Source: Pogonophryne albipinna (lineage: Eukaryota > Chordata > Actinopteri > Perciformes > Artedidraconidae). From it: a stretch of 64,000 nucleotides of DNA. The stretch covers positions 9,182,946-9,246,945 of the forward strand of contig CM053247.1 of NCBI GenBank assembly GCA_028583405.1, read 5' to 3'. Within the stretch, counting starts at the first letter, position 1. Each line of letters starts with the position of its first letter. Shown here piece after piece: positions 16,919 through 62,581 of the stretch. A model generated the notes under the pieces. It made no database searches. It saw only the letters and a list, made by a program, of their open reading frames with translations, and was not told the DNA's origin. Made by a program: the position numbers and the translations under genes.

Positions 16919-16923
16919 CTAAA

Positions 16924-17326
16924 TGTTGCGACCTGGCTCAAAAGGCCACAACAAAAAGGAGACACAACATGTCAACGGGTAGTTAAAGGTGTTTATTTAG
17001 GACAAACAAGTCACAACCAGTAAAGTATGAGGTGTGGAAGTCAGTGGTATCAGTAATGTAAAGGCAGGGTGAGGATTGTATGGACATGTATGTGTGTGAG
17101 AGTGTTGAAGTGCACAAAGTAAAGCAACTGAATAAACTCCTATCATACTCAACAAAACCAGTGTGCCTGCAGGGAGAAGCAGAGAGAGAACAGAGAGGAG
17201 CAGAGAGGTGTTAAATAGCTGCAGGACACCAGACCCAGGTGCCCTGAGTTACTGCAATCACCAATCACCACAGCACAGACAGGACAGCCACCTCCTCTCT
17301 ACTGATGAACCCACAGGGGCATCACA
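16924..17326 (-). repeat. 3' LTR of the Gag-SSRP1 element
   Basis: 403 bp, identical by eye to the copy at 20043-20445. On the minus strand it starts TGTGATGCCCC and ends GGTCGCAACA. It contains an AATAAA on the minus strand near 16995. The ORF of the element runs into this LTR and stops at 17299. Confidence 0.93.
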
Positions 17327-19479
17327 GCCCCCCCCTTAAGACGGGGCCCCAAAGGGATCCACGATAACCCAATATCCTCCTTCTTAACTCCAGCTTTTTT
17401 AATTTCCTTCTTAGGACTGGAGGACGCTCCTCCTCCGCCGCTGTCCCACTCCTCCTTGGGTTGGCTGGCGTTGATCCACAGCATGTAGGCGCTCATCGGC
17501 CTCTTGGGCGCGCCGACCTCGTTCGGCCTCCTTTTGTTCGGTCTCCTCTTGTTCGGCCTCCTCTTCTTCGCTTTGCAGGGTTTCCTCTCTTTCTTCTCCT
17601 TCTTCTTTGTCTCGATCTCAAAGTCCAAGGACCGTGCTGGACCACATTTTCCAGACTCCGAAACAGGTAGGTCAGTCGACATCCTACGGCTCTGCGCACG
17701 CGTAACAGTATAAACTGGAGACACACTTGGAAATTGCAAACCGCTCTCATCTGGCTCTACAGATGCCAACGGCCTGGAAATCACCACAGGCGGTGGCACA
17801 CCCGCCCACACAGCACTACCAGCTAGATCGTTGCCCAAAATCATCTGTACCCCATCAAGTGGCAACGCGGGACGCACGCCGATAGACACAACTCCCCGTA
17901 CCAGCTCACAATCCAGCACTACTGTATGACGTTGCACAGGAATCAAGCCCATCTCCATGCCCCTCATCAGCACAAAATCCCCTGTTTCTGTCTCTGACGA
18001 AAAAGGCAACACTGACTCAACAATAAATGAGTATCTAGCTGCTGTGTCACGCAACACCTTAATCGGAACATACTTGTCACTACCGACCATTGATACAACG
18101 GCTTCCGTTATGAACGGCTCAAAAACAGAACCCACCTCCAAGTCGGCACAAACCAGCTTCTTAACAGGCACCATGCCCGATCTTACACCCTGCGGCTTTT
18201 TAACCAAAACGGCAGAACAACACATGGCTGGAGCATGTGATGAAGAACGAGGCTTCCCCTCAGGTTCCAGCAACGGACACCGCTCCTTCCAATGACCCTC
18301 TTCTCGGCAATAATGACATTGGCCCACTCTGGCGCCCTCGGATCGCCCTGGACCTACAAATCTACGGGAGGAGCCTGGTGAAAACTTTGCACCACCGCGG
18401 GCATAGCCATTGTCTTCTCCACGTTTCCAATCACCCCTAGAATACTTCTCAGTAAAACTGCCCTTATGTGTCAACACAAAATCGTCCGCTAATTCAGCAG
18501 CTCTAAACGCGGTGGAAGGCTTCTGTTCATTCACATAAGTGGCCACACGCTGAGGGAGAATGTCTTTAAATTGTTCCAAGACAATGAGCTCACAAAGACC
18601 GTCAAAACTTGCAACCTTTGCTGCCGCGCACCACCGCTGAAAATGAGAAGTTAAATCACGGATAAACTCCACATGTGTCTGTTTATCTCCCTTGACCCAA
18701 CTTCTGAACCTTTGACGATACGCTTCAGGAACCAGTTCGTAAGACTTCAACACCGCTGATTTTACTCTATCATAGTCCAAAGCATTTTCGCCACAAACAG
18801 CTGAATAGGCTTCCTGTGCTCGCCCAGTGAGTACACACTGAAGTAACAGCACTCTGTCCGAATCTGACCAGTTTCTTGCCTCTGCTATGCGTTCAAATAG
18901 AGTGAAAAAAATGTCCGGGTCACGCTCATTGAACTTTGGCACTAATCGCAAGTAAGAAATGATATCGCCACTGCCTGATGCCGACCTATCACCACCATCC
19001 TCCCCTGGAGAAAACTTGCCCTCTCCCATCAGCCGTAATCTAGCATGTTCCACTTCACATTTCATCTTTTCCACCTCCAGCACCTTCTCCACCTCTAAAC
19101 GCTTCTCTACCTCCTGCTGCTGACCCCTCATCTCCAACTGCTCCAACCTCAACTTCTCCTGCTCCAACTTCAACTCCAACCGCAATCTCTCCTGATCAAA
19201 CTGCATGGCCAAAAGCTCCTTTTGCTGCTCGAACGTTAAACCAGCTGTCTGAACCACTACCGGCACGAACCCTGCTGCACCAGACTCACTCTTCTGCAAC
19301 ACCCCCTGCTCAAACAAAGATGACACAATGACAGTTTTAATGTCATGTTTCCGCTTGCTCCCCACAACAGCAATGTTATAGTGCTCTGCTATTTCGACCA
19401 ACTGCGCCTTCTGGCAATCATCTAAGAAAGACACTGAGGGCGCATCCACAAACGCTGACAAAGAAGTCATAATAACCAA
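17299..19479 (-). CDS. Gag-protease polyprotein with in-frame SSRP1 HMG-box fragment (726 aa)
   Basis: Residues about 84-150 form a Glu/Arg/Leu-rich coiled coil. About 250-340 is a SCAN-like capsid segment with ELIVLEQFKDILPQ. Residues 388-401 are a CCHC zinc knuckle (C-x2-C-x4-H-x4-C). About 450-560 is a retropepsin-like domain: its active-site block is LRDTAA (476-481), where the family has D-T/S-G, and ILGNDL follows at 547-552. No RT follows. From residue 625 a basic tract KKKEKKERKP leads into three RRPNK-type repeats and then GAPKRPMSAYMLWINAS (654-670), KEEWD and GGGASSSPKKE. These match the linker, HMG-box helix 1, helix-3 start and tail of SSRP1, a FACT histone-chaperone subunit. About 30 box residues are missing. 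The last residues are read from 3' polypurine-tract and LTR sequence. M1 or M4 may be the start. The SSRP1 origin is inferred from motif identity. Confidence 0.88.
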   Translation of the reverse strand: MVIMTSLSAFVDAPSVSFLDDCQKAQLVEIAEHYNIAVVGSKRKHDIKTVIVSSLFEQGVLQKSESGAAGFVPVVVQTAGLTFEQQKELLAMQFDQERLRLELKLEQEKLRLEQLEMRGQQQEVEKRLEVEKVLEVEKMKCEVEHARLRLMGEGKFSPGEDGGDRSASGSGDIISYLRLVPKFNERDPDIFFTLFERIAEARNWSDSDRVLLLQCVLTGRAQEAYSAVCGENALDYDRVKSAVLKSYELVPEAYRQRFRSWVKGDKQTHVEFIRDLTSHFQRWCAAAKVASFDGLCELIVLEQFKDILPQRVATYVNEQKPSTAFRAAELADDFVLTHKGSFTEKYSRGDWKRGEDNGYARGGAKFSPGSSRRFVGPGRSEGARVGQCHYCREEGHWKERCPLLEPEGKPRSSSHAPAMCCSAVLVKKPQGVRSGMVPVKKLVCADLEVGSVFEPFITEAVVSMVGSDKYVPIKVLRDTAARYSFIVESVLPFSSETETGDFVLMRGMEMGLIPVQRHTVVLDCELVRGVVSIGVRPALPLDGVQMILGNDLAGSAVWAGVPPPVVISRPLASVEPDESGLQFPSVSPVYTVTRAQSRRMSTDLPVSESGKCGPARSLDFEIETKKKEKKERKPCKAKKRRPNKRRPNKRRPNEVGAPKRPMSAYMLWINASQPKEEWDSGGGGASSSPKKEIKKAGVKKEDIGLSWIPLGPRLKGGAVMPLWVHQ
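17327..17340 (-). other. Polypurine tract of the Gag-SSRP1 element
   Basis: The minus strand reads CTTAAGGGGGGGGC directly next to the 3' LTR, the expected plus-strand priming site for reverse transcription. Confidence 0.75.
17374..17607 (-). other. Captured SSRP1-derived segment inside the retroelement ORF
   Basis: This is the part of the ORF that does not look like retroelement DNA. It encodes a Lys-rich linker, the start of an HMG box (APKRPMSAYMLW) and, after an internal deletion, KEEWD plus a Gly/Ser/Lys tail, all in SSRP1 order. It has no introns, so capture from a spliced transcript is likely. It lies where pol would be expected, between the protease and the polypurine tract. Confidence 0.8.
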
Positions 19480-20022
19480 TCAGAAAGCAAAGTATTAAAC
19501 TGCCAACACGCATGGGCATAAGATTAACCCAACAGAGAATTTCCCCCTAACTGCCTAAACAAAATCTTCCTAATCTCACCTAGTCTTCATGTGGCTTGCG
19601 GTGGGTAATTACGCACTGGAACCCGGCGGAGTTATGGAGCAACCTGCACGCATGTAACACCAAGAACTCACGCGGACGTGCCCCCGAGACAGCTGTCCGA
19701 AAACAGCTGACACTAACCACGTTGCCACAACACTATGAAAAAAAACAACAAAAAACAGACGCAACCCAAGGGGAAACGCCACTTAAGCCTAGCGGGGAAA
19801 ATCTCTTTTACAAAAGCGTAACAAACAGCAACATCTTACCTTCTGATTGGCAGACAAAACCTGACGACATGTCAAACACTACAGCCTCCTAAAACCCAAA
19901 AGACATGATGTGTCCCCCAAATAGCAGCGACAAGCCAGCACACAGCTGGACCACAACAATGAATCAGCTGCTCAATGACACCATGTGCTCTGAGCACTAC
20001 ACAAACTTTTTAAACAAATAAC
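19480..20022 (-). other. Untranslated leader of the Gag-SSRP1 element
   Basis: Between primer site and Gag start on the minus strand. No conserved ORF. Presumed leader with packaging signals; none can be pinpointed. Confidence 0.5.
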
Positions 20023-20040
20023 CCGTTGGACGAGCCCCCA
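20023..20040 (-). other. Primer binding site, tRNA-Pro type
   Basis: On the minus strand, two bases after the 5' LTR, the sequence is TGGGGGCTCGTCCAACGG. Its first 13 bases match the known tRNA-Pro primer site (TGGGGGCTCGTCC...), and the rest differs. Confidence 0.75.
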
Positions 20041-20042
20041 TT

Positions 20043-20445
20043 TGTTGCGACCTGGCTCAAAAGGCCACAACAAAAAGGAGACACAACATGTCAACGGGTA
20101 GTTAAAGGTGTTTATTTAGGACAAACAAGTCACAACCAGTAAAGTATGAGGTGTGGAAGTCAGTGGTATCAGTAATGTAAAGGCAGGGTGAGGATTGTAT
20201 GGACATGTATGTGTGTGAGAGTGTTGAAGTGCACAAAGTAAAGCAACTGAATAAACTCCTATCATACTCAACAAAACCAGTGTGCCTGCAGGGAGAAGCA
20301 GAGAGAGAACAGAGAGGAGCAGAGAGGTGTTAAATAGCTGCAGGACACCAGACCCAGGTGCCCTGAGTTACTGCAATCACCAATCACCACAGCACAGACA
20401 GGACAGCCACCTCCTCTCTACTGATGAACCCACAGGGGCATCACA
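20043..20445 (-). repeat. 5' LTR of the Gag-SSRP1 element
   Basis: 403 bp, identical by eye to 16924-17326. A TATTTAA-like motif on the minus strand near 20330 could serve as TATA box. The element promoter should lie here. Confidence 0.93.
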
Positions 20446-20450
20446 CTAAA

Positions 20451-22160: not shown

Positions 22161-23763
22161 CACTGAACAAAAATATAAATGCAACACTTTTGTTTTTGCT
22201 CCCATTTTTCATGAGATGAACTCAAAGATCTAAAACATTTTCTATATACACAAAATAACCATTTCTCTCAAATATTGTTCACAAATCTGAAAAAATCTGT
22301 GATAGTGAGCACTTCTCCTTTGCCGAGATAATCCATCCCACCTCACAGGTGTGGCATATCAAGATGCTGATTAGACAGCATGATTATTGCACAGGTGTGC
22401 CTTAGGCTGGCCACAATAAAAGGCCACTCTGAAACGTGCAGTTTTGCTTTATTGGGGGGGTCTGGGGGGGTCCGAAAACCAGTCAGTATCTGGTGTGACC
22501 ACCATTTGCCTCACGCAGTGCAACACATCTCCTTCGCATAGAGTTGATCAGGTTGTTGATTGTGGCCTGTGGAATGTTGGTCCACTCCTCTTCAATGGCT
22601 GTGCCAAGTTGCTGGATATTGGCAGGAACTGGAACACGCTGTCGTATACGCCGATCCAGAGCATCCCAAACATGCTCAATGGGTGACATGTCCGGTGAGT
22701 ATGCTGGCCATGCAAGAACTGGGATGTTTTCAGCCTCCAGGAATTGTGTACAGATCCTTGCAACATGGGGCCGTGCATTATCATGCTGCAACATGAGGTG
22801 ATGGTCGTGGATGAATGGCACAACAATGGGCCTCAGTATCTCGTCACGGTATCTCTGTGCATTCACAATGCCATCAATAAAATGCACCTGTGTTCGTCGT
22901 CCATAACATACGCCTGCCCATACCATAACCCCACCACCACCATGGGCCACTCGATTCACAACATTGACATCAGAAAACCGCTCACCCACACGACGCCACA
23001 CACGCTGTCTGCCATCTGCCCTGAACAGTGAAAACCGGGATTCATCCGTGAAGAGAACACCTCTCCAACGTGCCAGACGCCATCGAATGTGAGCATTTGC
23101 CCACTCAAGTCGGTTACGACGACGAACCGGAGTCAGGTCGAGACCCCGATGAGGACGACGAGCATGCAGATGAGCTTCCCTGAGACGGTTTCTGACAGTT
23201 TGTGCAGAAATTCTTTGGTTATGCAAACCGATTGTTGCAGCAGCTGTCCGAGTGGCTGGTCTCAGACGATCTTGGAGGTGAACATGTTGGATGTGGAGGT
23301 CCTGGGCTGGTGTGGCTACACGTGGTCTGCGGTTGTGAGGCCGGTTGGATGTACTGCCAAATTCTCTGAGACGGCTTATGGTAGAGAAATGAACATTCAA
23401 TTCACGGGCAACAGCTCTGGTGGACATTCCTGCTGTCAGCATGCCAATTGCACGCTCCCTCAAAACTTGCGACATCTGTGGCATTGTGCTGTGTGATAAA
23501 ACTGAACATTTTAGAGTGGCCTTTTATTGTGGCCAGCCTAAGGCACACCTGTGCAATAATCATGCTGTCTAATCAGCATCTTGATATGCCACACCTGTGA
23601 GGTGGGATGGATTATCTCGGCACAGGAGAAGTGCTCACTATTTGTGAACAATATTTGAGAGAAATGGTTATTTTGTGCATATAGAAAATGTTTTAGATCT
23701 TTGAGTTCATCTCATGAATAATAGGAGCAAAAACAAAAGTGTTGCATTTATATTTTTGTTCAG
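22161..23763 (-). mobile_element. Tc1-like transposon with intact transposase
   Basis: A TA dinucleotide flanks each side (22159-22160 and 23764-23765). The inverted repeats are long (about 260-280 bp) and begin CACTGAACAAAAATATAAA on the left; the right end lacks the two outermost bases. The right repeat also lacks a short stretch present in the left one. One uninterrupted transposase ORF lies between them on the minus strand. Related Tc1 elements are known from many fishes and from lampreys, where horizontal transfer has been proposed. A folded-back relative lies at 26781-27297. Confidence 0.93.
22483..23484 (-). CDS. Tc1-like DDE transposase, apparently full length (333 aa)
   Basis: Cuts and pastes the surrounding Tc1 element by binding the inverted repeats and integrating at TA. 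Residues 5-45 form the first helix-turn-helix (MSTRAVARELNVHFSTISRL). RRPR at 52-55 is the AT-hook-like linker, and a second HTH spans about 60-110. The catalytic triad is complete: D147 (LFTDESRFS), D235 (LQHDNARPH) and E270 (SPDMSPIEHVWD), giving the DD34E spacing of the Tc1 group. The Gly-rich HGGGGVMVW box is at 181-189. Length matches the family (about 340 aa). No frameshift or stop is visible, so it may encode active protein; loss of two terminal bases at one end could limit mobility of this copy. Confidence 0.95.
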   Translation of the reverse strand: MPQMSQVLRERAIGMLTAGMSTRAVARELNVHFSTISRLREFGSTSNRPHNRRPRVATPAQDLHIQHVHLQDRLRPATRTAAATIGLHNQRISAQTVRNRLREAHLHARRPHRGLDLTPVRRRNRLEWANAHIRWRLARWRGVLFTDESRFSLFRADGRQRVWRRVGERFSDVNVVNRVAHGGGGVMVWAGVCYGRRTQVHFIDGIVNAQRYRDEILRPIVVPFIHDHHLMLQHDNARPHVARICTQFLEAENIPVLAWPAYSPDMSPIEHVWDALDRRIRQRVPVPANIQQLGTAIEEEWTNIPQATINNLINSMRRRCVALREANGGHTRY

Positions 23764-31423: not shown

Positions 31424-32078
31424 GGATCTGCTGGAGAAGGACCCCTAATCTGAAAAGTGCACAGGGGATCATCAGGACAGAGCTGCATCCAGCTGGACCC
31501 CCGAGGTGCTGGAGAAGGACCCCTAACCCCAGCGGATCATCAGGACAGAGCTGCCATCCACCTTGACCCCCGAGGCGCTAGAGAAGGACCCCTAACCACA
31601 GCGGATCATCAGGACAGAGCTGCATCCAGCTGGACCCCCCGAGGTGCTGGAGAAGGACCTCTAACCCCAGCGGATCATCAGGACAGAGCTGCCATCCACC
31701 TGGACCCCCGAGGTGCTGGAGAAGGACCCCTAACCCCAGCGGATCATCAGGACAGAGCTGCATCCACCTGGACCCCCCGAGGTGCTGGAGAAGGACCCCT
31801 AACCCCAGCGGATCATCAGGACAGAGCTGCATCCACCTGGACCCCCCGAGGTGCTGGAGAAGGACCCCTAACCCCAGCGGATCATCAGGACAGAGCTGCC
31901 ATCCACCTGGACCCCCGAGGTGCTGGAGAAGGACCCCTAACCCCAGCGGATCATCAGGACAGAGCTGCATCCACCTGGACCCCCCGAGGTGCTGGTGAAG
32001 GACCCCTAACCCCAGCGGATCATCAGGACAGAGCTGCCAGCCACCTGGACACCCCGAGGTGCTGGAGAAAGCAAAACA
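31424..32078 (+). repeat. 69-bp minisatellite, about nine units
   Basis: The unit runs GGTGCTGGAGAAGGACCCCT through GATCATCAGGACAGAGCTGC to CCACCTGGACCCCCGA. Starts fall near 31505, 31574, 31643, 31712, 31781, 31850, 31919, 31988 and 32057, with a partial unit before. Because 69 is divisible by three, it stays open: 248 codons on the plus strand (31457-32203, unit EGPLTPADHQDRAA... of 23 residues) and 173 on the minus (31578-32099). A pyrimidine-rich AG acceptor-like site lies just upstream (TCTGTAATTAG, near 31407). Whether it is translated is unknown. Confidence 0.9.
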
Positions 32079-36239: not shown

Positions 36240-38854
36240 CCCCACCCGCTGAGGACAGGTTACACAGGTTTGTAGGACTTATGTGACCTCCTGGTTTGAC
36301 ATACGGGAGAGGGCATCTGCATTCGCGTTACATTGTCCCCTCCGATACTGGATGTCAAAGTGGAATGTAGACAGCCGAGACACCCATCGCTGGCCGGTAG
36401 CATCCAGCTTTGCAGAGGACATCACATATTTGAGGGGGTTGTTATCCGTCTGGACAGAGAATGGACGCCCATAGAGATGGTCGTAAAACTTGTCTGTCAC
36501 TGCCCACTTCAGAGCGAGGAACTCCAGTTTGTGTGCAGGATACCTCCCTCTTAGGAGCTGTCGGGTAAGTTTGCAATCTCGGTCGGGGAAAGGCCTGCCG
36601 CCTCTTTGACTTTCTTCGACAGCCCGCAGTATTGCCTCTAACGCTATAGCATAAGAGCAAGGGGATTCTCCGGATCTCTGGCTACGCTCATAGAAGTCAG
36701 CCAGTGGATCTAGAGAGCCTTGTGTGTCACCGTACTCTGCCCTCAGTTCTTCAAATGCCTTATCAGGGGTTTGATCATGGGGAGGTAGGTTCAGAACCAG
36801 CTTCCTAGCCTCACCACCCAGGTGTCGCACAGCAGTGGAGAAGCGGAGGTGCATGGGAAGCTCTACTGCCTCCAGGAGGTACTGCAGGTCACAAATCCAG
36901 TCCTCTATGAGCATTTTACTGTCAGCATTGCCAGTGAAGACTTGGAAATTCTTCACCTGATGGGTCTGCATGAAGCCACCATAGGCAGGCAGTGGAATGC
37001 TTGGGTGGGTGAGGGCTCTGCCAGGAGTCCTTTGCAGTGGCTCAGATAGACCGGGTTGAGTGTGGTGAGTGGGATATGGAGGTAAGGGCGCGGACTGATG
37101 GAGAAAATGGCGATTACTGCTGACTTGACGGTTTGAAGCAGGCATCCTTGGAGCAGGGGCTTGGGTGTGAGCTGCATAAGTTACATTCAGGGTGTTGGGC
37201 GCTGTCATGTTGGGGCCCCATACACTGGTGACAGAATGTAGCCTCGGGGCTCCTTCACTTTGAATCAGGTCATGTGGATAATGGACAGCAGCTAGTGACA
37301 TATGTGATTAGGGGGTTCGTTCATAATCTGACCATCGGAGGGTCTGCCCAGCAGCAGCGGGGTTATTCATAATGTTAATTGTTTGTGGTGTTTCAAACCT
37401 TGGTGCGGGTACTTGGGGTTCAGGAGCAGGATATGCATAGCTGGTGTAGACATGGGAGTTACGCTGAATGGCCTCGGTTGGATAAGGGGGGTTAATTGGA
37501 GGATTTATGTTGGGCTGCTGCATAGTTTGCATTTCAGGGTAGGCGTTGAGCGGGAAGCTCTGAGGTGGTACAAAAGCTGTGGGTTCATACACACTGACTT
37601 GGGGTGGGGCGGCTGCACCCAGTCTGCCATAATCAGACCTGTCTGGTGACTTGGACCCGGGCTAGGGCTGTTGTCGAAACAGAGCTGAGGTTCCTGTATT
37701 GAAGCTCCAGGGCCTGGAAATGAAGATACATGAGCTGGAGTAACACGGTGATCAGTATAAGGTGAGAGGATTGGGGGTTGTGGGGTATGATGCAAGCCTG
37801 AGTCTGTGGGGTTCCAGCTGATCCGGTGGTCTTCAGTATCAAACTGGAGTGAAGCATTTGCAAACCTGGTGGGCTGGATGGTGAGTTTTGGCCTCACTGA
37901 TAGCTGGTGGTTCGCTGTGCTCGTGTCAGTGGATGCCCCTTCACTAAAGAGGTGTGTGTGTGTTTTAATAGGGGAGTCATAGTTGAGGCTCATTGCAGGC
38001 CCAGGGAGAGGTTGCAGGCCTGATGCCTCAAGCTTTGATCGGGAATATGTACGGGCACTCCACATCTGTTTGTGTGTTAGCTTGTGTTTATGTGGAAATG
38101 TTATTTCTAGTGTATTGTAATGAGTCAAAACAATCAATACAAATTATAATGTCTAGCACAATGTCAGCTCGTAATTGAATTACATCTAGAACACTGCTCA
38201 ATAAGAATATATATGAGATAAATTGGCAACAATAGCTTAATATTCGTTGCAGAGTGGTCTCACACACAATATACTCTTTAACCATTCAAGTAGTGGTGAA
38301 GTTGCTATAATAACAGGAAAAATTCACTAAAGAAAACAGCAAAGTTCACAGCCTTTAAAGGATATATTGGAGAAGGTGAATTTCCTGCCAATAAAGCTTC
38401 ACAGATAATAGCTCAGTCCAACAAGCTGTTCACTCACCAGCCTAGTATATACAGTTCAATACAGTGGCAAAGTGTGGGGGTGGGGGGGTGGGGTGGGGTG
38501 GTGGGTGGTACTGCCATCAGTCTCTCCTTCTTAGCACTCGGAGCACCACAACCCGGGTGACGGCACCAAAGATGTAACCCAAATGTCCCGTAGCCTCTCT
38601 GAACACCCTGGGACTCTGCGTTGTGTTTATTACTGGTGATGGGATGTTATGCAGAGGGAAGGAAGACAGGACACAGTAGATCGGAATGTGATGGAGACGC
38701 TGAGTAGTGATTTATTCATCCCATTGGCAGCTCTTCTGACACACCTTTCGTGGAGTGAATACAAACATTTGCGCATTATGCTAACCAATACAATAACCAA
38801 ATGAACAGACAAAACATAAACATCTAATTCCCAAACATACACAAACAAACTGGC
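36240..38854 (-). mobile_element. Ty3-like element copy A: internally deleted, minus strand
   Basis: Minus-strand relative of the element starting at 54259. Reading from high coordinates: LTR 3' part (38573-38854), primer site, Gag, then an abrupt junction to the RNase H region and the end of homology at 36240. RT, integrase and 3' LTR are absent. The remaining LTR matches copy B only for its last 280 bp; beyond 38854 the sequence is unrelated to copy B. Confidence 0.85.
36279..38137 (-). pseudogene. Gag::RNase H fusion remnant of Ty3-like copy A
   Basis: The upstream open frame (37505-38137) gives the Pro/Thr/Ser-rich N-terminal Gag part. It then shifts frame after a deletion relative to copy B. 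The next frame (37308-37592) ends in a stop where copy B has Gln. The last (36279-37301) holds the Gag core, with FTGNADSKMLIEDWICDLQY at about residues 120-140. At CKLTRQLLRG it passes directly, in frame, into RYPAHKLEFLALKWAV of the RNase H domain, ending MSNQEVT. In copy B these two points are about 2.6 kb apart, so the deletion removed the zinc knuckle, protease and RT while keeping the frame. Confidence 0.85.
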
Positions 38855-46001: not shown

Positions 46002-47905
46002 CTAGTGCAACACTTGTGCCTGCTTTTGTGAGCAGAGTCTCTTGATGCGTGGGGGGATAGTGGACAGCGCAACGCGGAGGTCCTGCTCCACTGACAGCCG
46101 GGTGCGGGTCTTGTTTTTGACATATGCAAGTGAGGAAAACGCCAGCTCGCACAAGTAGGAGGTTGGAAACTGTAAAAGCACCTTGATGGCACTCTCTGAG
46201 AGGGATGGATACTCGTGTCCCACAAGCAGCCAAAATATATCCAGACGTAGTTCCCCGTGCTTCAGTTTCAGGGAGCGGTCCATAGATAGCTCTGCGAGTT
46301 CATCATGAGCTCTGCTGTTTAAACTTGTGGCTGATATTAATGACAGAGGATTAAACGGATCCCGGAGCCAATCAAAGTCTTCATTCATAGGAGTGGAATA
46401 TGACTCAAACCTCTCCTCCAGCACTCTCAGGTGAGCAGCTACAACTTGTAGAAAAAATGCTGTCTTGTGCGCTGGGTCACTGGATGTCAGCGGAAACATT
46501 TCAATGTTTTTCTTGGCGACTTTATTTTGCCACAGTCTTAACTTGAATCGGAAACCATTGAGTTTGTCTGTGGCTGTCAGGATATTCTCATTCTTCCCTT
46601 GCATTCTGATGTTGAGGTCATTGAGGTGGCAAAAAATATCTGCCAGATATGCAAGCTTAACCCACCACGATTCATCATCCATGTGTTCTTTGTAGGGTAA
46701 GTCGTGCTCATTTGCAAATGCAACAAGTTCGTCGCGGAGCTCGTAGACACGGGACAGCACCTTGCCCCGTGACAGCCAGCGGACCTCCGTGTGCAGTAAA
46801 AGGCCATGGTGCTCAGCCCCCATCTCATTGCACAATGTGCTGAACAACCGCGACTTCAGTGGACGGGACTTGATGTAGTTCACTATTTTCACAACTTGTT
46901 CTAATACTGCAGTGAGGTCTGGTGGCATAGCTTTGGCGACAAGGGCTTCTCGGTGTAACATGCAGTGGGTTATCTGTACATCGGGATTTACCTGTCTCAC
47001 TTTATTTACAAAGCCTTTCACCCTCCCTGTCATTGAGGCAGCCCCGTCGGTGCAAATGCTGTGGCATATCCCCCAGTTTAGACCCTGTTCTGTCAGGTAA
47101 TCAGCTGTGGTCTTGTACATTTCCTCTCCGGTTGCATGTCTGTGTAACTCTTTGCAAAAAAAGAAGTTCTCCTCAATGGATTCTCCGTCAACATATCTCA
47201 CGTTGGCAATGAGTTGACAGTGGCCACTTATGTCTGTTGAATCATCAACTTGCAGAGCGAATTTGCCACTTCTCTGTCTACTGACATGTCATCGATGCGA
47301 CGTTTGATTGTATTGTTGGATAATGGAATTTTATCGATTTCTTTAGTAGCATCTGGCCCTATCATTACCCTGACAATTTCCTTACATGCCGGTAGAATGA
47401 GGTTTTCCGCGATAGTGTGGGCTTTTTTTGCCTTGGCGATTAACTCAGCAACCAAATAGCTGGCCTCTTGTGCTTTGTCAGAGACACGTAGAGACGAAAG
47501 CATATGTTGACTCTGCTTCTCATTTTGTGATTTCAGTCTCTGGAAATACTCAATGTCCTTGGAATTATAAGAAGGATGTTTTGTGCTAAAGTGTCTTGCT
47601 AGTTTACTTGACACCATTCCTTCGTTGGATAATTTTTCTCTGCAGATTAGGCATTCTGGCGTCGGGCAGTCAGCATCCCCAGTCCAGGAGAAACCATACC
47701 GAAGGTAGCTTTCGCTGTACTGTCTGCTTTTAGACTTCTTTTGCACTGCTGTTCCATCATGTTCTGTCATCCCTGCCTGTGTTGTTGAGGGCTGGGGTGC
47801 TTCTTTATTTATTGTCACTAAGTAACGATCCATCTTGTAATTATTTGGCGCGAGGATAAAAAGCTGCTCTGCACACCGTAAACAATGACGGCTGACGTAA
47901 ATCAT
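46002..47905 (-). pseudogene. hAT (Charlie/ZBED-like) transposase, frameshifted
   Basis: Encoded on the minus strand in two frames. The first (47228-47905; likely start MDRYLVTINK at 47833) has a BED finger with C-x2-C (CLIC) and H-x4-H (HFSTKH), then the helical region TIAENLILPACKEIV. The second (46002-47201 and slightly upstream) has FALQVDDSTDISG just ahead of its first Met, then SICTDGAASMTGR, HCMLHREALVAK, LLHTEVRWLSRGKVL, and the C-terminal SYLCELAFSSLAYVKNKTR dimerisation block. This is the order seen in SCAND3/ZBED5-type proteins. The frames break near 47235 because a short stretch between DMSVD and RSGKFALQ is missing, so this copy is dead. A hAT end (complement of CAGTGGTTCCCAACC) lies at 48091-48105; the other end was not found. 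Confidence 0.88.
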
Positions 47906-48177
47906 GAGAATTTAAGCAGTTTAATATTTCTAAATCTGAGCAATATATGTTTTATTAGTTTATGAACTCCATTGTAGGCTACATGTAATAAAATAAAGTG
48001 TATATGAAGTGAAGTTTATTAAGTGAGAAAATTTTTTTTTGCAGCACACTTGGACAGTGCTCGCGGCACCCCAGTGTGCCGCGGCACACCGGTTGGGAAC
48101 CACTGCACTAGGAAAGACAACATAAGAACAACAACACAAAACATGACCGACTCAGCATTTCTGACGGTGCACAACAG

Positions 48178-49221: not shown

Positions 49222-49861
49222 GTCATCACTACCCTCCAGACTGTTCTCCTCTCTGTCTTCCTCAGTGTCTTCCTCTCTGTCTTCCTCACTGTCTTCCTCA
49301 CTGTCTTCCTCTCTGTTCTCCTCCCTGTCTTCCTCTCTGTTCTCCTCTCTGTTCTCCTCTCTGTTCTCCTCCCTGTCTTCCTCTCTGTTCTCGTGACTGT
49401 TCTCCTCTCTGTTCTCCTCTCTGTTCTCCTGACTGTTCTCCTCTCTGTTCTCCTGACTGTTCTCCTCTCTGTTCTCCTCTCTGTTCTCCTGACTGTTCTC
49501 CTGACTGTTCTCCTCTCTGTTCTCCTCTCTGTTCTCCTGACTGTTCTCCTCTCTGTTCTCCTCTCTGTTCTCCTCTCTGTCTTCCTCTCTGTTCTCCTCC
49601 CTGTTCTCCTGACTATTCTCCTCTCTGTTCTCCTCTCTGTTCTCCTCTCTGTTCTCCTCACTGTCTTCCTCTCTGTTCTCCTCTCTGTTCTCCTCTCTGT
49701 TCTCCTCTCTGTTCTCCTCTCTGTTCTCCTCACTGTTCTCCTCTCTGTTCTCCTCTCTGTTCTCCTCACTGTTCTCCTCTCTGTTCTCCTCTCTGTCTTC
49801 CTCTCTGTTCTCCTCTCTGTCTTCCTCTCTGTTCTCCTCTCTGTTCTCCTCTCTGTTCTCT
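49222..49861. repeat. 12-bp minisatellite (CTCTCTGTTCTC), about 53 units
   Basis: About 640 bp built from CTCTCTGTTCTC and the variants CTCTCTGTCTTC, CTGACTGTTCTC and CTCACTGTTCTC. It is purine-only but for scattered bases on one strand, so triplex or slippage-prone structures are possible. Because 12 is divisible by three it stays open on both strands (LLSVLLSV on plus; EENREENR or RRTERRTE on minus). Confidence 0.95.
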
Positions 49862-55222: not shown

Positions 55223-58200
55223 TTGATTGTTTTGACTCATTACAATACACTAGAAATAACATTTCCACATAAACACAAGTTAACACACAAACAGATGTGG
55301 AGTGCCCGTACAGATTCCCCATCAAAGCTTGAGGCATCAGGCCTGCAACCTCTCCCTGGGCCTGCAATGAGCCTCAACTATGACTCCCCTATTAAAACAC
55401 ACACACACCTCTTGAGTGAAGGGGCATCCACTGACACGAGCACAGCGAACCACCAGCTATCAGTGAGGCCAAAACTCACCAACCAGCCCACCAGGTTTGC
55501 AAATGCTTCACTACAGTTTGATACTGAAGACCACCGGATCAGCTGGAACCCCACAGACTCAGGCTTGCATCATACCCCACAACCCCCAATCCTATCACCT
55601 TATACTGATCACCGTGTTACTCCAGCTCATGTATCTTAATTTCCAGGCCCTGGAGCTTCAATACAGGTACCTCAGCTCTGTTTCGACAACAGCCCTAGCC
55701 CGGGTCTAAGTCACCAGACTAACATGTCTGATTATGGCAGACTGGCTGCAGCCGCTTCTCAGCCAGTGGTACAGTCAACGATGGTCCCTGCCCCCCCACC
55801 CCAAGTCAGTGTGTATGAACCCACAGCTATTGTACCACCTCAGAGCTTCCCGCTCAACGCCTACCCTGAAATGCAAACTATGCAGCAGCCCAACATAAAT
55901 CCTCCAATTAACCCCCCTTATGCAACCGAGGCCATTCAGCGTAACCCCCATGTAGTACCCGCACCAAGGTTTGAAACACCACAAACAATTCACATTATGA
56001 ATAACCCCCCTGCTGCTGGGCAGACCCTCCGATGGTCAGATTATGAACGAACCCCCCAATCACATATGTCACAAGCTGCTGTCCATTATCCACATGACCT
56101 GACTCAAAGTGAAGGAGCCCCGAGGCTACATTTTGTCACCAGTGCATGGGGCCCCAACATGGCAGCGCCCAACCCCCTGAATGTAACTTATGCAGCTCAC
56201 ACCCAAGCCCCTGCTCCAAGGATGCCTGCTTCGGACCATCAAGTCAGCAGTAATCGCCATTTTCTACATCAGTCCGCGCCCTTACCTCCATATCCCACTC
56301 ACCACACTCAACCCGGTCTATCTGAGCCACTGCAAAGGACTCCTGGCAGAGCCCTCACCCACCCAAGCATTCCACTGCCTGCCTATGGTGTCTTCATGCA
56401 GACCCATCAGGTGAAGAATGTCCAAGTCTTCACTGGCAATGCTGACAGTAAAATGCTCATAGAGGACTGGATTCGTGACCTGCAGTACCTTCTGGAGACA
56501 GTAGAGCTTCCCATGCACCTCCGCTTCTCCACTGCTGTGCGACACCTGGGTGGTGAGGCTAGGAAGCTGGTTCTGAACCTACCCCCCCATGATCATACCC
56601 CTGAGAAGGCATTTGAAGAACTGAGGGCAGAGTACAGTGACACACAAGGCTCTCTAGATCCACTGGCTGACTTCTATGAGCGTAGCCAGAGGTCCGGAGA
56701 ATCTCCCTGCCAGGGTCGGCTCTAGAACAAATCGAATGGGGGGGGCAATCATTTACCAAGGGGGGGCACACACTGCCGTCAACAACCAACACACAAACAC
56801 CAACGCAACTTCAATTTCAAAAAACATGCTGTAAAGTCTATTGTCTTTCACACACATTGCAGGGATGTAGTGCTATTTTCTAGCGCACCTATGACCTCTG
56901 CATGCATGCACGGTTGTGGCACGACCACCAAAACAGAAACATATGGACATAGGCCACCATATAAAAAGTGTGCAAATGTATTTAGTATCCTATCCATGTA
57001 AACATGTTTTAGGTGGGGGTGGACCTCCTCTAGGAGGGTCTGGGGGCATGCTCCCCCGGGAAGATTATTTTTAAAATATTGAAGTTAAATGCATCAATCT
57101 GGTGCACTTTGAGAGCAAAATGAAGAGATCTATGGATAGCCTACATCTCTCAGCATCCATATGAAACAGAACTGTACACAGATTTACTTTTTCTTTATGG
57201 ATATTTTACTAATCACTCCCCTTTTAAACTGTATTCTTGTGTTACTGTCCTATAGTATTTCATACCCGTTTTTCATTTATTCTCTTATTTTTTTAATAAC
57301 TATAGGCTAATGATCATATAAATGTGTTCCTCGCAAATACTTGTTTACATAAATGGTGACCAAACCGTTTGAGACCCACTGAGATAACTTACACTAAAGT
57401 GAACTATCTAAACACTGAGAGAGTCCTTACCTCGCTGAGCTGAGGTTATACGATCCTCTCAGTCTGACAGGAGAGGACTCTCCTCCACCTTGTTGTAGAA
57501 ACAGCTCTTTATGTCCGTTAGCATAGCTAGCTAACCAGATGCTAACAACAACATTCCACGTTACCGCTCGCGCACTCACAAAATGCGATTGTGCCACACA
57601 CACACAGAGCCGAGCTTGAATGAAACACAGAGACCCAGAATTAGGCTACTTTTACTGTACTGTATATCATATTATTTTCGATGGCTTTACTGTATAATCA
57701 GTGTAACAGATAAACAGATTGCCACCAGCTTTCATCTAAACACACAGCCACGTAATGATAACAAAACAAAGGTCGGGGGTCATTGGTCAAGCAACACACC
57801 AATCAGAGAGCAGCAGTGAGCACACCTCAGGCTGTGTTTTATATTTGTATTCTTTATTTCTGATGTATTTCACACAAAAAACCTTTAGTGGAAACGTTTT
57901 CACTTATATGATTAAAAAAATAAAAAAACGCCAAAGTGGCAAGGCTTGCCCACCCTGCGTTGGGGGGGCACAGTGACTCATTTGGGGGGGCATGGCCCGC
58001 GAATGACCCCCCATGACGCCGACCCTGCTCCCTGCTCTTATGCTATAGCGTTGGAGGCAATACTGTCGGCTGTCGAAGAAAGTCAAAGAGGGGGCAGGCC
58101 TTTCCCTGACCGAGATTGCAAACTTACCCGACAGCTCCTAAGAGGGCTTATTGATGAGGAAGTCTACACGAGGATTTCACCTATAAAGCCCCTGCTTTTC

Positions 58201-58662
58201 AGTTTCCGAGAGCTTCAAACTGAACTCAGAAACCTAGCAAAAGAGTCTAAAAGGTTCCAGTCACAAAACAAGGCAAAGAAAACATACGCCCAGGTGCATG
58301 TTACAACAGAGGGTACTAATGTAAGGGCAGAAAGGTCAAAGAATACCTCAGAGTGGTCAGAGTTGACAGAGATGGTGAAGAGATTGGCTGTTAACCAAGA
58401 GGAGCAGATGGCAAAGTTGTCTCGTCTGGAGTCAAGAGTTGCTGCTTCACCCACGGTTCCTCCATCAAGGGTCCAGCAACCCCCTAGAACTGCAATCCAG
58501 AGTTCAAGTTTTGTATGCTACCGGTGTGGGAAGGAAGGACATACAGCCCGTGTCTGCAGAGCAGTGCTCCCAGATCCCAATCCGGCCTGGGCACGCCAAC
58601 CACAGCCTATGACCCCTGCGTTGGAGAACAGGCCTAACTCAGCTCAGCATTTAAACACTTAG
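55223..58662 (+). pseudogene. Gag of Ty3-like copy B, interrupted
   Basis: A Pro/Thr/Ser-rich N-terminal region opens at 55223, with in-frame Met codons at 55295 and 55367. It meets a TAA near 55637 where copy A has TCA (Ser). The same frame continues with MSDYGRLAAAASQPV (55724) and the Gag core (FTGNADSKMLIEDWIRDLQY, then LRFSTAVRHLGGEARKLVLN) up to SGESPC at 56710, where a hAT is inserted. After the hAT it resumes at 58036 with YAIALEAILSAVEE, a Gln-rich coiled part, and the zinc knuckle C-Y-R-C-x4-H-x4-C (CYRCGKEGHTARVC) near 58518-58560. The stop is at 58660. Not functional as it stands. Confidence 0.88.
56711..58027. mobile_element. Non-autonomous hAT inserted in the gag gene of copy B
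   Basis: Ends CAGGGTCGGC and GCCGACCCTG are perfect inverted repeats. The perfect 8-bp duplication CTCCCTGC (56703-56710 and 58028-58035) is Gag coding sequence. Gly-rich GGGGGGGC tracts lie near both ends. The interior shares blocks with 29820-30350 and 50215-50420. No transposase. Confidence 0.93.
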
Positions 58663-58667
58663 AGCCC

Positions 58668-59255
58668 ATGGTAACCGGGGCAACCATCGGCGGGCAGCAA
58701 GATCCCCCACAGCAAGTAAAAAAATCAATAGGTGGAAAAGAGGGCACCCTCTTAGTAGGCCCACGGAACGAGGGTGAGGTTGAAGTCAATGGAATGAAGT
58801 GCAAAGCTCTCATCGACTCTGGCTCTCAGGTAACCAGTATTACTCACGGATATTGGTGCAACCACCCTGCCCTGCAGAACCAAAAGCTGCAGCCTTCTAA
58901 AGTACCCATAGAGGGTGCAGCAGGTCAACGTGTGTCCTACTATGGTGTCCTGCAAATTGACTTGAAAGTGCTGGGAAAAGAGTTCAAAACTGTGCCTGCT
59001 TTTGTTGTCCCTGATTCTGATTATCGCTCCTCTGTTCCATTGCTTGTGGGAACGAATGTCATTCGGGCTTCGAGGAGTCACCTCCAAGCAACCTACGGCC
59101 AGCAGTTTCTTCACCGAGTCAAGGAAGACCACCCGGAGTGGTACACCGCTCTACTGGAGATTGGCAGCACCGACCGTGAGGCAACAGATGACAAGGTGGG
59201 CCCTGCTGTACCGGGCGCAATATTCGAATTCCCGCAGGAAAAGAGAAGGACTTGA
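58668..59255 (+). CDS. Retropepsin-like protease region of Ty3-like copy B (195 aa)
   Basis: Opens six bases after the Gag stop, in the -1 frame relative to Gag, so the two would normally be joined by frameshifting. The active-site block is ALIDSGSQVTSI (D-S-G) at about residues 48-59, and the flap/second half includes VPLLVGTNVI at about 125-134. It cleaves the polyprotein in the particle. The frame ends at 59255, where RT sequence continues in another frame. An indel of one base between about 59235 and 59250 has separated protease from RT. Confidence 0.85.
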   Translation: MVTGATIGGQQDPPQQVKKSIGGKEGTLLVGPRNEGEVEVNGMKCKALIDSGSQVTSITHGYWCNHPALQNQKLQPSKVPIEGAAGQRVSYYGVLQIDLKVLGKEFKTVPAFVVPDSDYRSSVPLLVGTNVIRASRSHLQATYGQQFLHRVKEDHPEWYTALLEIGSTDREATDDKVGPAVPGAIFEFPQEKRRT

Positions 59256-62200
59256 GGTGTGAGATCAAAACGGGCCCACAGAGAAAGACTTATACTGCCC
59301 TCATTGAAAGCAACTCCTCCTTGCAGCTTCCCCAGGACCTCTTGGTTGCCAAAGTCCTGGCTGATGTAAAGAAAGGCTGTGCCCCGGTCAGAGTGATGAA
59401 CCTGTCCCAACATGCTATTACTATTAAGCCACACACTCACCTGGCCAATGCATTCCTGGTGGACAATGTTGTGGAATTTCCAGGCGAAAAGCTGAGTGGA
59501 TGTCGCAATAATGGGAGTCAGGAAGTCTGCCTGAGTCTGGACCAGGTAGTGGTGAGTTGTGGGGTGGACCTAAGTGAAGCAGCAGTTGAGAATGAACATC
59601 AGCGCTCCCTCCTTAGAGATCTTGTCGAGAGGAACATAGGTGTTTTCTCCAAGCATCCCATGGACTACGGCCACACAAAAACAATGCAGCATGACATTCC
59701 CCTGGTTGATTCCAAGCCCTTCCGGCTCCCGTATCGCAAGATTCCGCCTTCACAGTGGCAAGATGTGCGGAAGTTGTTGATAGAGATGGAGGCGACAGGA
59801 GTCATCAGGCCTAGTAAGAGTCCATATGCGTCCCCAGTGGTGATCGTGACTAAGAAAGATGGGTCATTAAGGTTGTGCATTGACTACAGAAAGCTAAACT
59901 CCTACAGCACGAGATCCGCATTTCCCCTGCCCAGAATAGAAGGGGCCCTGGAGGCTCTGGGGCAAGCAAAGTACTTTTCCACACTTGACCTCACATTTGG
60001 TTCCTGGCAGGTGGAGGTAGCAGAACAAGACAAGCACAAGACAGCATTCAGCACACCCATGGAGCTGTTTGAGGCCAACAGGATGCCCTTCGGACTGCAG
60101 AATGCTCCGTCCACCTTCCAGAGGCTCATGACCTGCTGTTTTGGGGATCTGAACTTCACCCACCTCTTGATGTACCTTGACGACCTCATCATCTTCTCCA
60201 AAACCTTTGATGACCATCTGGAGAGGTTTCAGCTGGTGTTTGATCGGCTTCATGAACATGGCTTGAAGTTAAAGCCTTCCAAGTGCCAGCTTGTGAGAAA
60301 GGAAGTGCAGTACTTGGGTCACTTGGTATCGGCGGAGGGGATCAGGACAGACCCAGAGAAGATCAGCAAGGTCAGGGACTGGGTGAGGCCCACAAACAGT
60401 AAGGAAGTGTTGCAGTTCTTAGGGTTTGCTGGATATTACAGGTGGTACGTTGGTGGCTACTCGAGCATCGCTGCTCCTTTATACCGCCTGACAACTGGTG
60501 ACCCCAGGAAGAAAATAAGAGGAAGGAAGACAAGTTTGGGTCCTGAGCCGCCCTTTTTGTGGACTACAGAGTGTGAAGAAGCCTTTCAGTCCCTGAATCA
60601 AAAGTTGACGACTGCTCCAGTACTGGGTTACCCGGATTACAGCCTACCTTTTGTGCTTCAGACCGATGCGTCGGGACAGGGTCTTGGTGCTGTCTTGGTT
60701 CAAGTCCAGGATGGAGCTGAGAGAGTCATAGCCTATGCGAGCAGAGGCTTGAGCCCGGCCGAGTCGAGGTATCCTGCACACAAACTGGAGTTCCTCGCTC
60801 TGAAGTGGGCAGTGACAGACAAGTTTTACGACCATCTCTATGGGCGTCCATTCTCTGTCCAGACGGATAACAACCCCCTCAAATATGTGATGTCCTCTGC
60901 AAAGCTGGATGCTACCGGTCAGCGAGGGGTGTCTCGGCTGTCTACATTCCACTTTGACATCCAGTATCGGAGGGGACAATGTAACGCAAATGCAGATTCC
61001 CTCTCCCGTATGTCAAACCAGGAGGTCACACAGGTCCTACAAACCTGTCCTCAGCGGGTGGGGATCAATGTGAAAGTGCATGGGGAGACACAGCCCACAC
61101 TAGAACCAGGAGGGCCCCCTGATGAGAACACTGCCGCAGAGAACCCTGACTCACAAGATCGTGGGCCGGGCATGTCAAGTGAGTCCTACAGGGAGGTGGG
61201 GACGGAATCCTTGCCTGCCATGACAAAACAGGAGATCCGTGTGGGGCAGAAGGAGGACCCTGTCATTGGCCCCGTCTTGCACTACAAAAGTTTGAACCGG
61301 AAACCAAGCCGCAGCGAGTGGGTCAATGGTGGTGGGCAGGTGTGCCTTCTTTTAAAAGAGTGGAGGAGGTTAATGGTGAGGGATGGTATCATGTACTGCC
61401 ACATCCACGACGGCCAAAGGAGAATAGTGGAGCAGCTAGTATTGCCAGAGAAACTGCATACAGCAGTAAAGACTGCTCTCCATGATGATTCAGGGCATTC
61501 AGGATTCGAGAGGACGTTGCAAATGATAAGGGAGAGATTCTACTGGCCAAGAATGTTTCAAGAAATAAAGGCTTGGTGTGAGCAGTGTGAAAGATGCTGT
61601 CTCCGGAAGACCCCTACTGCAGGCTCCAGGGCTCCCCTGGTCAGTATCCACAGCAGTGCCCCCATGGAGCTGGTGTGTGTGGACTTTCTGACTCTGGAGA
61701 AGTCCAAAGGTGGCATAGAAAATGTGCTTGTGGTTACAGACCACTTTTCCCGCTACGCCCAGGCCTACCCGACAAAAGACCAAAAGGCCTCTCCAGTGGC
61801 TAAAACACTGTGGAAAAACTTCTTCTGCCAGTTTGGGTTCCCTGCGAAGCTGCATGCGGACCAAGGGCGCAACTTTGAAAGTACAGTTGTGAAGGAGCTG
61901 TGTAAGTGCACTGGCATCACAAAGACTCATACGACCCCTTACCACCCCCAAGGCAACGGGACCACAGAAAGGTTCAACCGGACCCTCGTGAACATGCTGG
62001 GGACCTTGGAGCCACACTTGAAACCCCGCTGGCATGAGCATCTTGACGCAATGACACATGCCTATAACTCCACACAGCACGATTCAACGGGTTACACACC
62101 ATACTACCTGATGTTTGGGAGACATCCTAGGCTCCCAGTGGACCTGATTTTTGGGCTTTCCACCGCAAGTAAGCCACGTGGATACAGTGATTATGTCCAA

Positions 62201-62581
62201 ATTCTGTACGACAGTCTGTCACAGGCATATGCACAGGCTAATCAAACCTCTCGGCATGCTAAGGCTCAACAGAAAAAGCACTATGACAGAAAAGCAAAGG
62301 GTCAAGTCTTCATACCGGGGGATAGAGTCCTTGTCAAAGTATGTCATGTGGAGGGAAGGCAGAAACTGGGAGACAGATGGGAGGCACGTCCATACATTGT
62401 GGTGAAGAAACAACTCAACACACCTGTATATGCAGGGCTCGACATTATAAATGGCCCGCTGGCCCGGAAGCACTATTTAGACACCCCGGGCCAGCATAAC
62501 GTACTTTCCACTTGCCCGCTCGGGCCACTAAAAATATTGTTTAAAAAAAAATGTTTCCTGTGGTATTGGTATTTTGACTAG
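59252..62581 (+). pseudogene. Pol of Ty3-like copy B: reverse transcriptase, RNase H, integrase (about 1,060 retroelement codons, then hAT sequence)
   Basis: Open from a TTG codon because of the upstream frameshift. RT domain about residues 160-370: KSPYASPVVIVTKKDGSLRL, FGLQNAPSTFQRLM and the catalytic YLDD (308-311). The usual TLDLTSGYWQ box reads TLDLTFGSWQ. RNase H-like domain from LQTDASGQGLGAVL (about 469) to NADSLSRM. Integrase: zinc-binding HHCC (HDDSGH at about 743, CEQCERC at about 776), then D811, D870 and E906, a DD35E triad (HADQGRNF, TTERFNR). The true frame reaches TPVY at 62430; the rest to 62581 is translated hAT DNA. The original tail resumes at 63717. Confidence 0.92.

Follow-up and report, generated by a model that had tools for sequence, protein, structure and literature searches.

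A long terminal repeat (LTR) retroelement of Pogonophryne albipinna carries, in place of pol, part of the host gene ssrp1a joined in frame to gag and protease. The element lies on the minus strand at 16924-20445 of a 64-kb stretch of contig CM053247.1 (the window, in whose numbering all coordinates are given). It was noticed in a preliminary description made from the letters alone, and that observation is confirmed and larger than reported. We conclude, with a probability of about 0.86, that the element belongs to a non-autonomous Gmr1-like Ty3/gypsy family of approximately 300 places that captured ssrp1a mRNA, is mobilized in trans, and carries the captured tail mostly as tolerated cargo.

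The SSRP1-derived stretch is approximately 86 codons long (17377-17634) and follows Gag and protease in the same frame. It is made up as follows.

17605-17634, minus strand: SSRP1 piece 1, RSLDFEIETK, human SSRP1 386-397
17569-17604, minus strand: SSRP1 piece 2, basic linker preceding the HMG box, in part matching ssrp1a at 31/32 bases
17464-17568, minus strand: SSRP1 piece 3, KRRPN repeat units (15 bp) and the first part of the HMG box, matching ssrp1a at 73/77 bases
17443-17463, minus strand: remainder of the HMG box, QPKEEWD, after an 87-nt loss; spans the site of the missing 967-bp intron
17377-17442, minus strand: post-HMG SSRP1 piece (Gly/Ser/Lys); spans the site of the missing 75-bp intron

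Comparison of the tail with solved structures gave human SSRP1 as the best match (E 3.7e-6 and 7e-6); outside SSRP1, the highest-ranking chain was HMG-D (E 0.0079). The preliminary description had assigned 17374-17607 to SSRP1, provided that it matched ssrp1 better than other HMG-box genes; the identity stands and the extent does not, as homology starts near 17634, 27 nt earlier. A search of the P. albipinna genome (1,073,210,567 bases) located the host ssrp1a on C3 at about 26387962-26400473. Its exons are identical to the tail at 73/77, 31/32 and 35/38 bases. The captured stretch spans three ssrp1a introns (95, 967 and 75 bp), each of them precisely missing from the element, and piece 3 begins where the 95-bp intron is missing. 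The donor was therefore a spliced mRNA, as had been proposed. Capture from genomic DNA is ruled out by the absent introns, and another HMG gene as donor is ruled out by the SSRP1 best match together with the ssrp1a exon identity.

The captured ssrp1a sequence starts with RSFDFEIETK (human 386-397), skips ahead to the linker where an ACAAAG is shared, and stops 22 codons past KEEWD. The 87 nt lost from the HMG box consist of gaps of 20 and 67 nt flanking a retained AACCC. The Pfam HMG_box model covered 18/69 of its positions on the tail, below the cut-off, and Pfam at E 1 found no other SSRP1 domain; the element thus lacks the complete HMG box and the remaining domains of an SSRP1/FACT subunit. 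In the structure model the SSRP1-derived end has block-mean predicted local distance difference test (pLDDT) values of at most 64 and a single 8-residue helix, and is predicted to be disordered. An intact HMG box is ruled out by the 18/69 positions, the missing 87 nt and the disordered model.

The tail has the signature KRRPKEVGAPKRP in common with SSRP1a of the Antarctic clade (P0121 of Pseudochaenichthys, and the ssrp1a of the same genome); it is absent from SSRP1 of Eleginops (P0137) and Cottoperca (P0154). This distribution suggests that the capture postdates the split of the Antarctic notothenioids from Eleginops.

The preliminary description had proposed a search for further copies with the same junction. 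When 17327-17700 was compared with its own genome, 40/40 scored candidates matched at 98-100% (360 passed the first look). A 27-nt pattern across the HMG-box join, allowing up to 2 mismatches, was found at 157 + 148 = 305 places, and the backwards control gave 0. The pattern is specific to the chimera and does not occur in ssrp1a; the count covers captures that have this join. Tails were read from 63 copies. The join was present in 63/63 tails, 20 of which had been chosen by it, so the count is biased towards tails that have it. Five of 48 sequences (L018, L027, L053, L056 and L057) lacked an anchor, yielded no tail and were dropped.

Twenty further copies were read in 5.6-kb stretches. They were those nearest to the window tail, and are thus biased to the youngest subfamily. 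LTR pairs could be measured in 17/21 copies, window included. Ten pairs had no mismatch, five had one, one had two and one had three; the zero-mismatch pairs of L031 and L042 carry 11 and 19 gap columns. Exact 5-bp target duplications, as in Gmr1-like Ty3/gypsy elements, flank 13 of these 17 copies, again counting the window. The duplications are shifted by one base in 3 and differ at one base in 1. L032, which lies outside the mismatch count, has two LTRs of a shorter type and an open frame of 669 codons; L034, L045 and L048 have a single LTR each. In 10/21 copies an open reading frame (ORF), counted from a methionine, extends over at least 716 codons. The 0-3 LTR mismatches and 13 perfect target duplications bear out recent movement without pol.

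The fusion was also found among proteins. In a database of approximately 5.8 billion sequences, where only candidates with shared short words were scored, P0004 (P. albipinna) is a Gag-SSRP1 fusion with 98% identity over the tail. The fusions P0005 and P0002, on Gymnodraco acuticeps contigs of different length, retain more of SSRP1. Apart from these three, neither the best 120 of 137 matches nor the best 120 of 220 contained a Gag fusion. P0001 contains Gag, RSLDFEIET and the KKRRPK part, without the HMG piece. The junction therefore exists beyond this assembly, with 305 dispersed places here, differing target duplications and the Gymnodraco fusion ruling out a single-assembly accident. The same three facts, and the SSRP1 best match, already contradict derivation of the tail from another HMG gene or an assembly artefact. 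Nothing except the short length of the match speaks for that explanation, and its probability is negligible.

The remaining features of the element are as follows.

20446-20450, no strand: target duplication CTAAA, right copy, 5 bp
20043-20445, minus strand: 5' LTR, 403 bp, identical to the 3' LTR
20028-20040, minus strand: primer-binding site TGGGGGCTCGTCC, 2 nt inside the 5' LTR
19471-20027, minus strand: 5' leader, 92-99% identical to pol-bearing relatives at 9/10 loci (1 of the 9 partial)
17299-19470, minus strand: ORF for Gag, protease and SSRP1 tail, 723 codons from the first ATG at 19470
18463-18729, minus strand: SCAN domain (capsid-type) of Gag, Pfam E 7.7e-19
18274-18321, minus strand: zinc knuckle, Pfam E 0.012, below the cut-off
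17818-18120, minus strand: retropepsin-like protease domain, from the structure model and Foldseek
17327-17338, minus strand: G-rich polypurine tract abutting the 3' LTR; 3' terminal stretch alike in 5 pol-bearing loci
16924-17326, minus strand: 3' LTR, 403 bp, with approximately 120 extra nt mid-LTR relative to pol-bearing relatives
16919-16923, no strand: target duplication CTAAA, left copy, 5 bp

The LTRs are identical over all 403 bases, CTAAA is present at both flanks, and the polypurine tract adjoins the 3' LTR, all as first described. The primer-binding site TGGGGGCTCGTCC is presumably of the tRNA-Pro type, matching the 3' end of that tRNA. The open frame on the minus strand (17299-19479) has 726 codons in total, of which the final 28 nt are inside the 3' LTR. 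Its Gag and protease content was verified by the SCAN domain and the retropepsin model. A model of residues 435-726 contains an all-beta domain, the protease, with pLDDT >90 across most of it, and Foldseek of the modelled protease returned retroviral proteases at the top, XMRV protease first (E 1.7e-4). No integrase, reverse transcriptase (RT) or RNase H domain was found in the element by Pfam. An element without pol that was recently inserted fits a non-autonomous LTR element mobilized in trans.

Integrase lies ahead of RT in Gmr1-like elements. The same order was found in three pol-bearing homologues (P0014, P0038 and P0053), and the SCAN-type Gag of the window element is likewise of the Gmr1-like Ty3/gypsy kind; it is unlike them in having no detected integrase, RT or RNase H. 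The SCAN domain has been described, in parts of PMC3424704, as derived from Gmr1-like Gag.

Pol-bearing relatives occur in the same genome. When P0003 was used as query, 63 of 2668 candidates were scored. Thirty-eight matched to residue 690 or beyond, and 25/63 end at residues 590-594, where SSRP1 starts in the chimera. For several pol-bearing matches the listing gives open frames of 1,500-1,622 codons, and at 6/8 pol-bearing loci checked the frame from gag is open to the end of the stretch. The main pieces of gag-protease at 10 pol-bearing loci are 89-98% identical to those of the window element. Identity is 93-100% over the last 75 nt of the LTR (9/10 loci) and 82-91% over the 34-56 nt of the 3' terminus, to which 5 of the loci extend. 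A partner with common cis sequences thus exists, as its leader, LTR end and 3' end match those of the chimera. A 37-nt pattern across the gag/integrase join of this sister, allowing up to 3 mismatches, was found at 38 + 40 = 78 places (control 0).

The proposal that the element still moved by means of a relative's proteins is a sound inference from the long open frames of these pol-bearing loci, though not proven, and capture, pol loss and help in trans are together well supported. A search for a pol-bearing relative with the same LTR had also been proposed; relatives were found, and the loci read do not carry the window's LTR type.

Further observations concern individual loci. For the pol-bearing match C188:51167-52972 the listed open frame has 3,946 codons, far above the others. 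The leader of L071-L080 is up to 98.6% identical to that of the window element. Over the first 336 nt of gag, L078 and L079 reach 97.9% identity, versus approximately 94% for the remaining gag-protease and 80-86% for LTR nt 1-184. These jumps in similarity, and the shorter LTR of L032 beside a chimera tail, suggest recombination between the families.

The following mechanism is consistent with these results and with established LTR biology. Within a particle, RT would switch between the RNA of a gag-pro-integrase-RT element and a co-packaged spliced ssrp1a mRNA. The switch would put part of SSRP1 in place of all that had followed the protease, and later jumps would trim the captured piece. The chimera RNA, bearing the shared leader and primer site, would be packaged by its own Gag. 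Gag and protease would be self-supplied, since both remain under selection, and the pol-bearing sister would provide RT and integrase, which would recognize the chimera by the leader and the LTR and polypurine ends common to both. Translation of the SSRP1-derived end would then give Gag a disordered, basic extension that is mostly tolerated cargo and may add generic positive charge.

Several points weigh against this reading. Few shared bases are visible at the gag/SSRP1 join, so template switching there is unproven, and the clearest microsimilarity, the 6-nt ACAAAG, is at an internal join of the captured piece and not at the outer gag join. LTR nt 1-184 are only 80-86% alike between pol-bearing loci and the window element (9/10 loci), and none of the pol-bearing loci read (L071-L083) had the LTR type of the window element. 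Approximately 120 nt of the LTR middle have no match in those loci. This stretch is not universal in the chimera family, because L032 lacks most of it, matching the window LTR only at nt 1-218 and 330-403. The excess of the chimera over its sister, about 4:1, is approximate, as the two patterns are unequal in length and stringency and L074-type variants lacking 9 nt can be missed. Finally, the selection contrast described below includes only 19 tail events in the matched 26 copies, too few alone to prove it.

Gag-protease is under purifying selection. The ratio of nonsynonymous to synonymous differences per site (pN/pS) between the window element and 6 of 10 pol-bearing loci was 0.37-0.45. In 21 chimera copies, partial ones included, 608 codons contained 24 synonymous, 28 nonsynonymous and 1 stop distinct variants (omega about 0.46, p 0.004). 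With 5 copies of older subfamilies added, the 26 copies gave 70 synonymous, 74 nonsynonymous and 4 stop variants (omega about 0.41, p 1.5e-7). The Gag and protease that the chimera itself encodes therefore matter for its spread. A test for purifying selection on the tail found none: 97 codons in 63 copies contained 23 synonymous, 72 nonsynonymous and 1 stop variants, where a nonsynonymous-to-synonymous ratio of 3.10 was expected (omega about 1.01, p 0.56). In the matched copies the tail had 4 synonymous and 7 nonsynonymous variants (21 copies) or 5 and 14 (26 copies; omega about 0.9, p 0.52).

We lean slightly toward the tail being purely passive cargo, with success owed to a shorter RNA, the LTR or chance. 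The unconstrained substitutions, the broken HMG box and the predicted disorder all agree with this. It accords less well with the persistence of basic units in most copies read and with the openness of most tails, and the LTR difference is not universal, as the shorter LTR of L032 demonstrates.

The extension might instead work in Gag, through nucleic-acid binding or nuclear delivery, and so explain the excess of the chimera over its sister. We think this unlikely. Tails are open in 50/63 copies, and KRRP-type units number 2-4 in 57/63; none was scored in the other 6, which include L054, an otherwise open basic tail. The basic segment has a net charge of +12, +13, +17 and +18 in four cleanly excised tails. 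In-frame tail lengths were found in 51/62 copies (13 distinct lengths), and the 10 out-of-frame lengths are nearly all single copies (11 copies; L020 left out). According to parts of PMC8639466, the basic loop 520-545 of human SSRP1, which is kept here, confers double-stranded DNA binding on the HMG domain, and a maize basic region beside the HMG box, cited there, sufficed for nuclear targeting. Against such a role, the residues show no constraint. For human SSRP1, the same parts of PMC8639466 put the nuclear signal at 677-687, which the element did not capture, and report that deletion of 515-531 left nuclear entry intact. The excess of in-frame lengths is confounded by slippage of 15-bp units, from which it partly arises. 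L051, L055, L086 and L101 have in common an 8-nt loss that shifts the frame, so frame-broken copies can multiply too, unless the loss arose repeatedly.

The kept piece has the loop and not the signal; a charge-based role in nucleic-acid binding is therefore conceivable, and a borrowed nuclear signal less so. More specifically, the SSRP1 basic loop and KRRP repeats on Gag might aid access to nucleic acid or chromatin, so that the pol-less element outnumbers its sister, and to this version we give a little less credence still. The preliminary description had left it open whether the tail affects nuclear import, RNA binding or target choice or is passive. A chromatin-protein function at the level of residues or fold is not supported, given the absence of detectable selection and the predicted disorder, and a generic function as a basic tail is possible.

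The 8-nt loss lies before the HMG piece, in three long-tail copies and one short-tail copy, and puts the tail end in another frame. It reflects either a recurrent event or exchange between copies.

The chimeric Gag could also interfere with the pol-bearing sister, as a parasite or as a copy-number control. Gag and leader are similar and the chimera is in excess, yet the frame from gag is still open to the end of the stretch in 6/8 pol-bearing loci, and we regard interference as improbable. Tolerated cargo on a trans-mobilized chimera remains our preferred reading.

The element is of a known kind. In gag-onc transforming retroviruses such as Abelson virus, pol is replaced by host cDNA fused to Gag and a helper is needed; unlike these, the window element is germline, has one ORF only and carries no transforming gene. 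LARD and TRIM elements lack pol, depend on others and are generally non-coding. The window element is like them in having no pol and unlike them in encoding Gag and protease. Maize Bs1 has gag content and no RT. Like the window element it is an LTR retroelement with cellular gene fragments in a hybrid ORF; these are fragments of three cellular genes, as described in parts of PMC5408686 and PMC13317346. Bs1 differs in that its three genes are plant genes, whereas here a single vertebrate gene is joined to a selected Gag-protease at approximately 300 places. LTR-mediated retroposition in metazoans, zebrafish included, proceeds by template switching at microsimilarity (Tan et al. 2016, as reported in parts of PMC5408686). 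It too places mRNA sequence between LTRs, and here three introns were precisely removed. Those events are described as gene retrocopies, and here a replicating family retains gag and protease.

With Bs1 as precedent, the present case differs in being a germline family of a vertebrate whose Gag-protease is under selection, with approximately 300 places and visible intermediates. Among the best few of up to 1,202 papers matched in a literature search, with most subscription journals outside it, no SSRP1-carrying retroelement was reported, and SSRP1 is nowhere mentioned in the main text of a notothenioid genome preprint from 2026. Parts of the P. albipinna genome paper (PMC10716251) describe Iso-seq data and many recent Gypsy copies. 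Here, capture of a vertebrate mRNA by an LTR element founded a replicating family and not a one-off retrocopy. The donor gene, pol-bearing relatives and many intermediate forms are all in one genome, and the tails, long and short, with their varying numbers of repeats and their broken frames, let capture, trimming and spread be ordered and tested. The family also offers a contrast between a selected Gag-protease and a captured tail without detectable constraint.

The window contains other repeats. A 346-codon open frame at 22483-23523 (minus strand) has the Tc1-type transposase domains DDE_3 and HTH_Tnp_Tc3_2. A second, different gypsy element at 57916-62581 (plus strand) has zinc knuckle, protease, RT, RNase H and then integrase in overlapping frames. 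The 342-codon frame at 36279-37307 (minus strand) resembles by eye the gag part at 55640-56725 and runs into an RNase H end; it is probably a relative of the second gypsy element that has undergone internal deletion, again with one open frame and most of pol missing. Overlapping frames of 428 and 227 codons at 46002-47911 (minus strand) look by eye like a hAT/ZBED-type transposase, with no Pfam family at E 0.001. A 69-bp minisatellite of approximately 9 units (31462-32069, plus strand) lies within a 249-codon open frame. At 49241-49860 is a 12-bp tandem array of approximately 52 units, many of which are 84-93% like 28-44 nt of the element LTR, a likeness that is probably due to shared low complexity.

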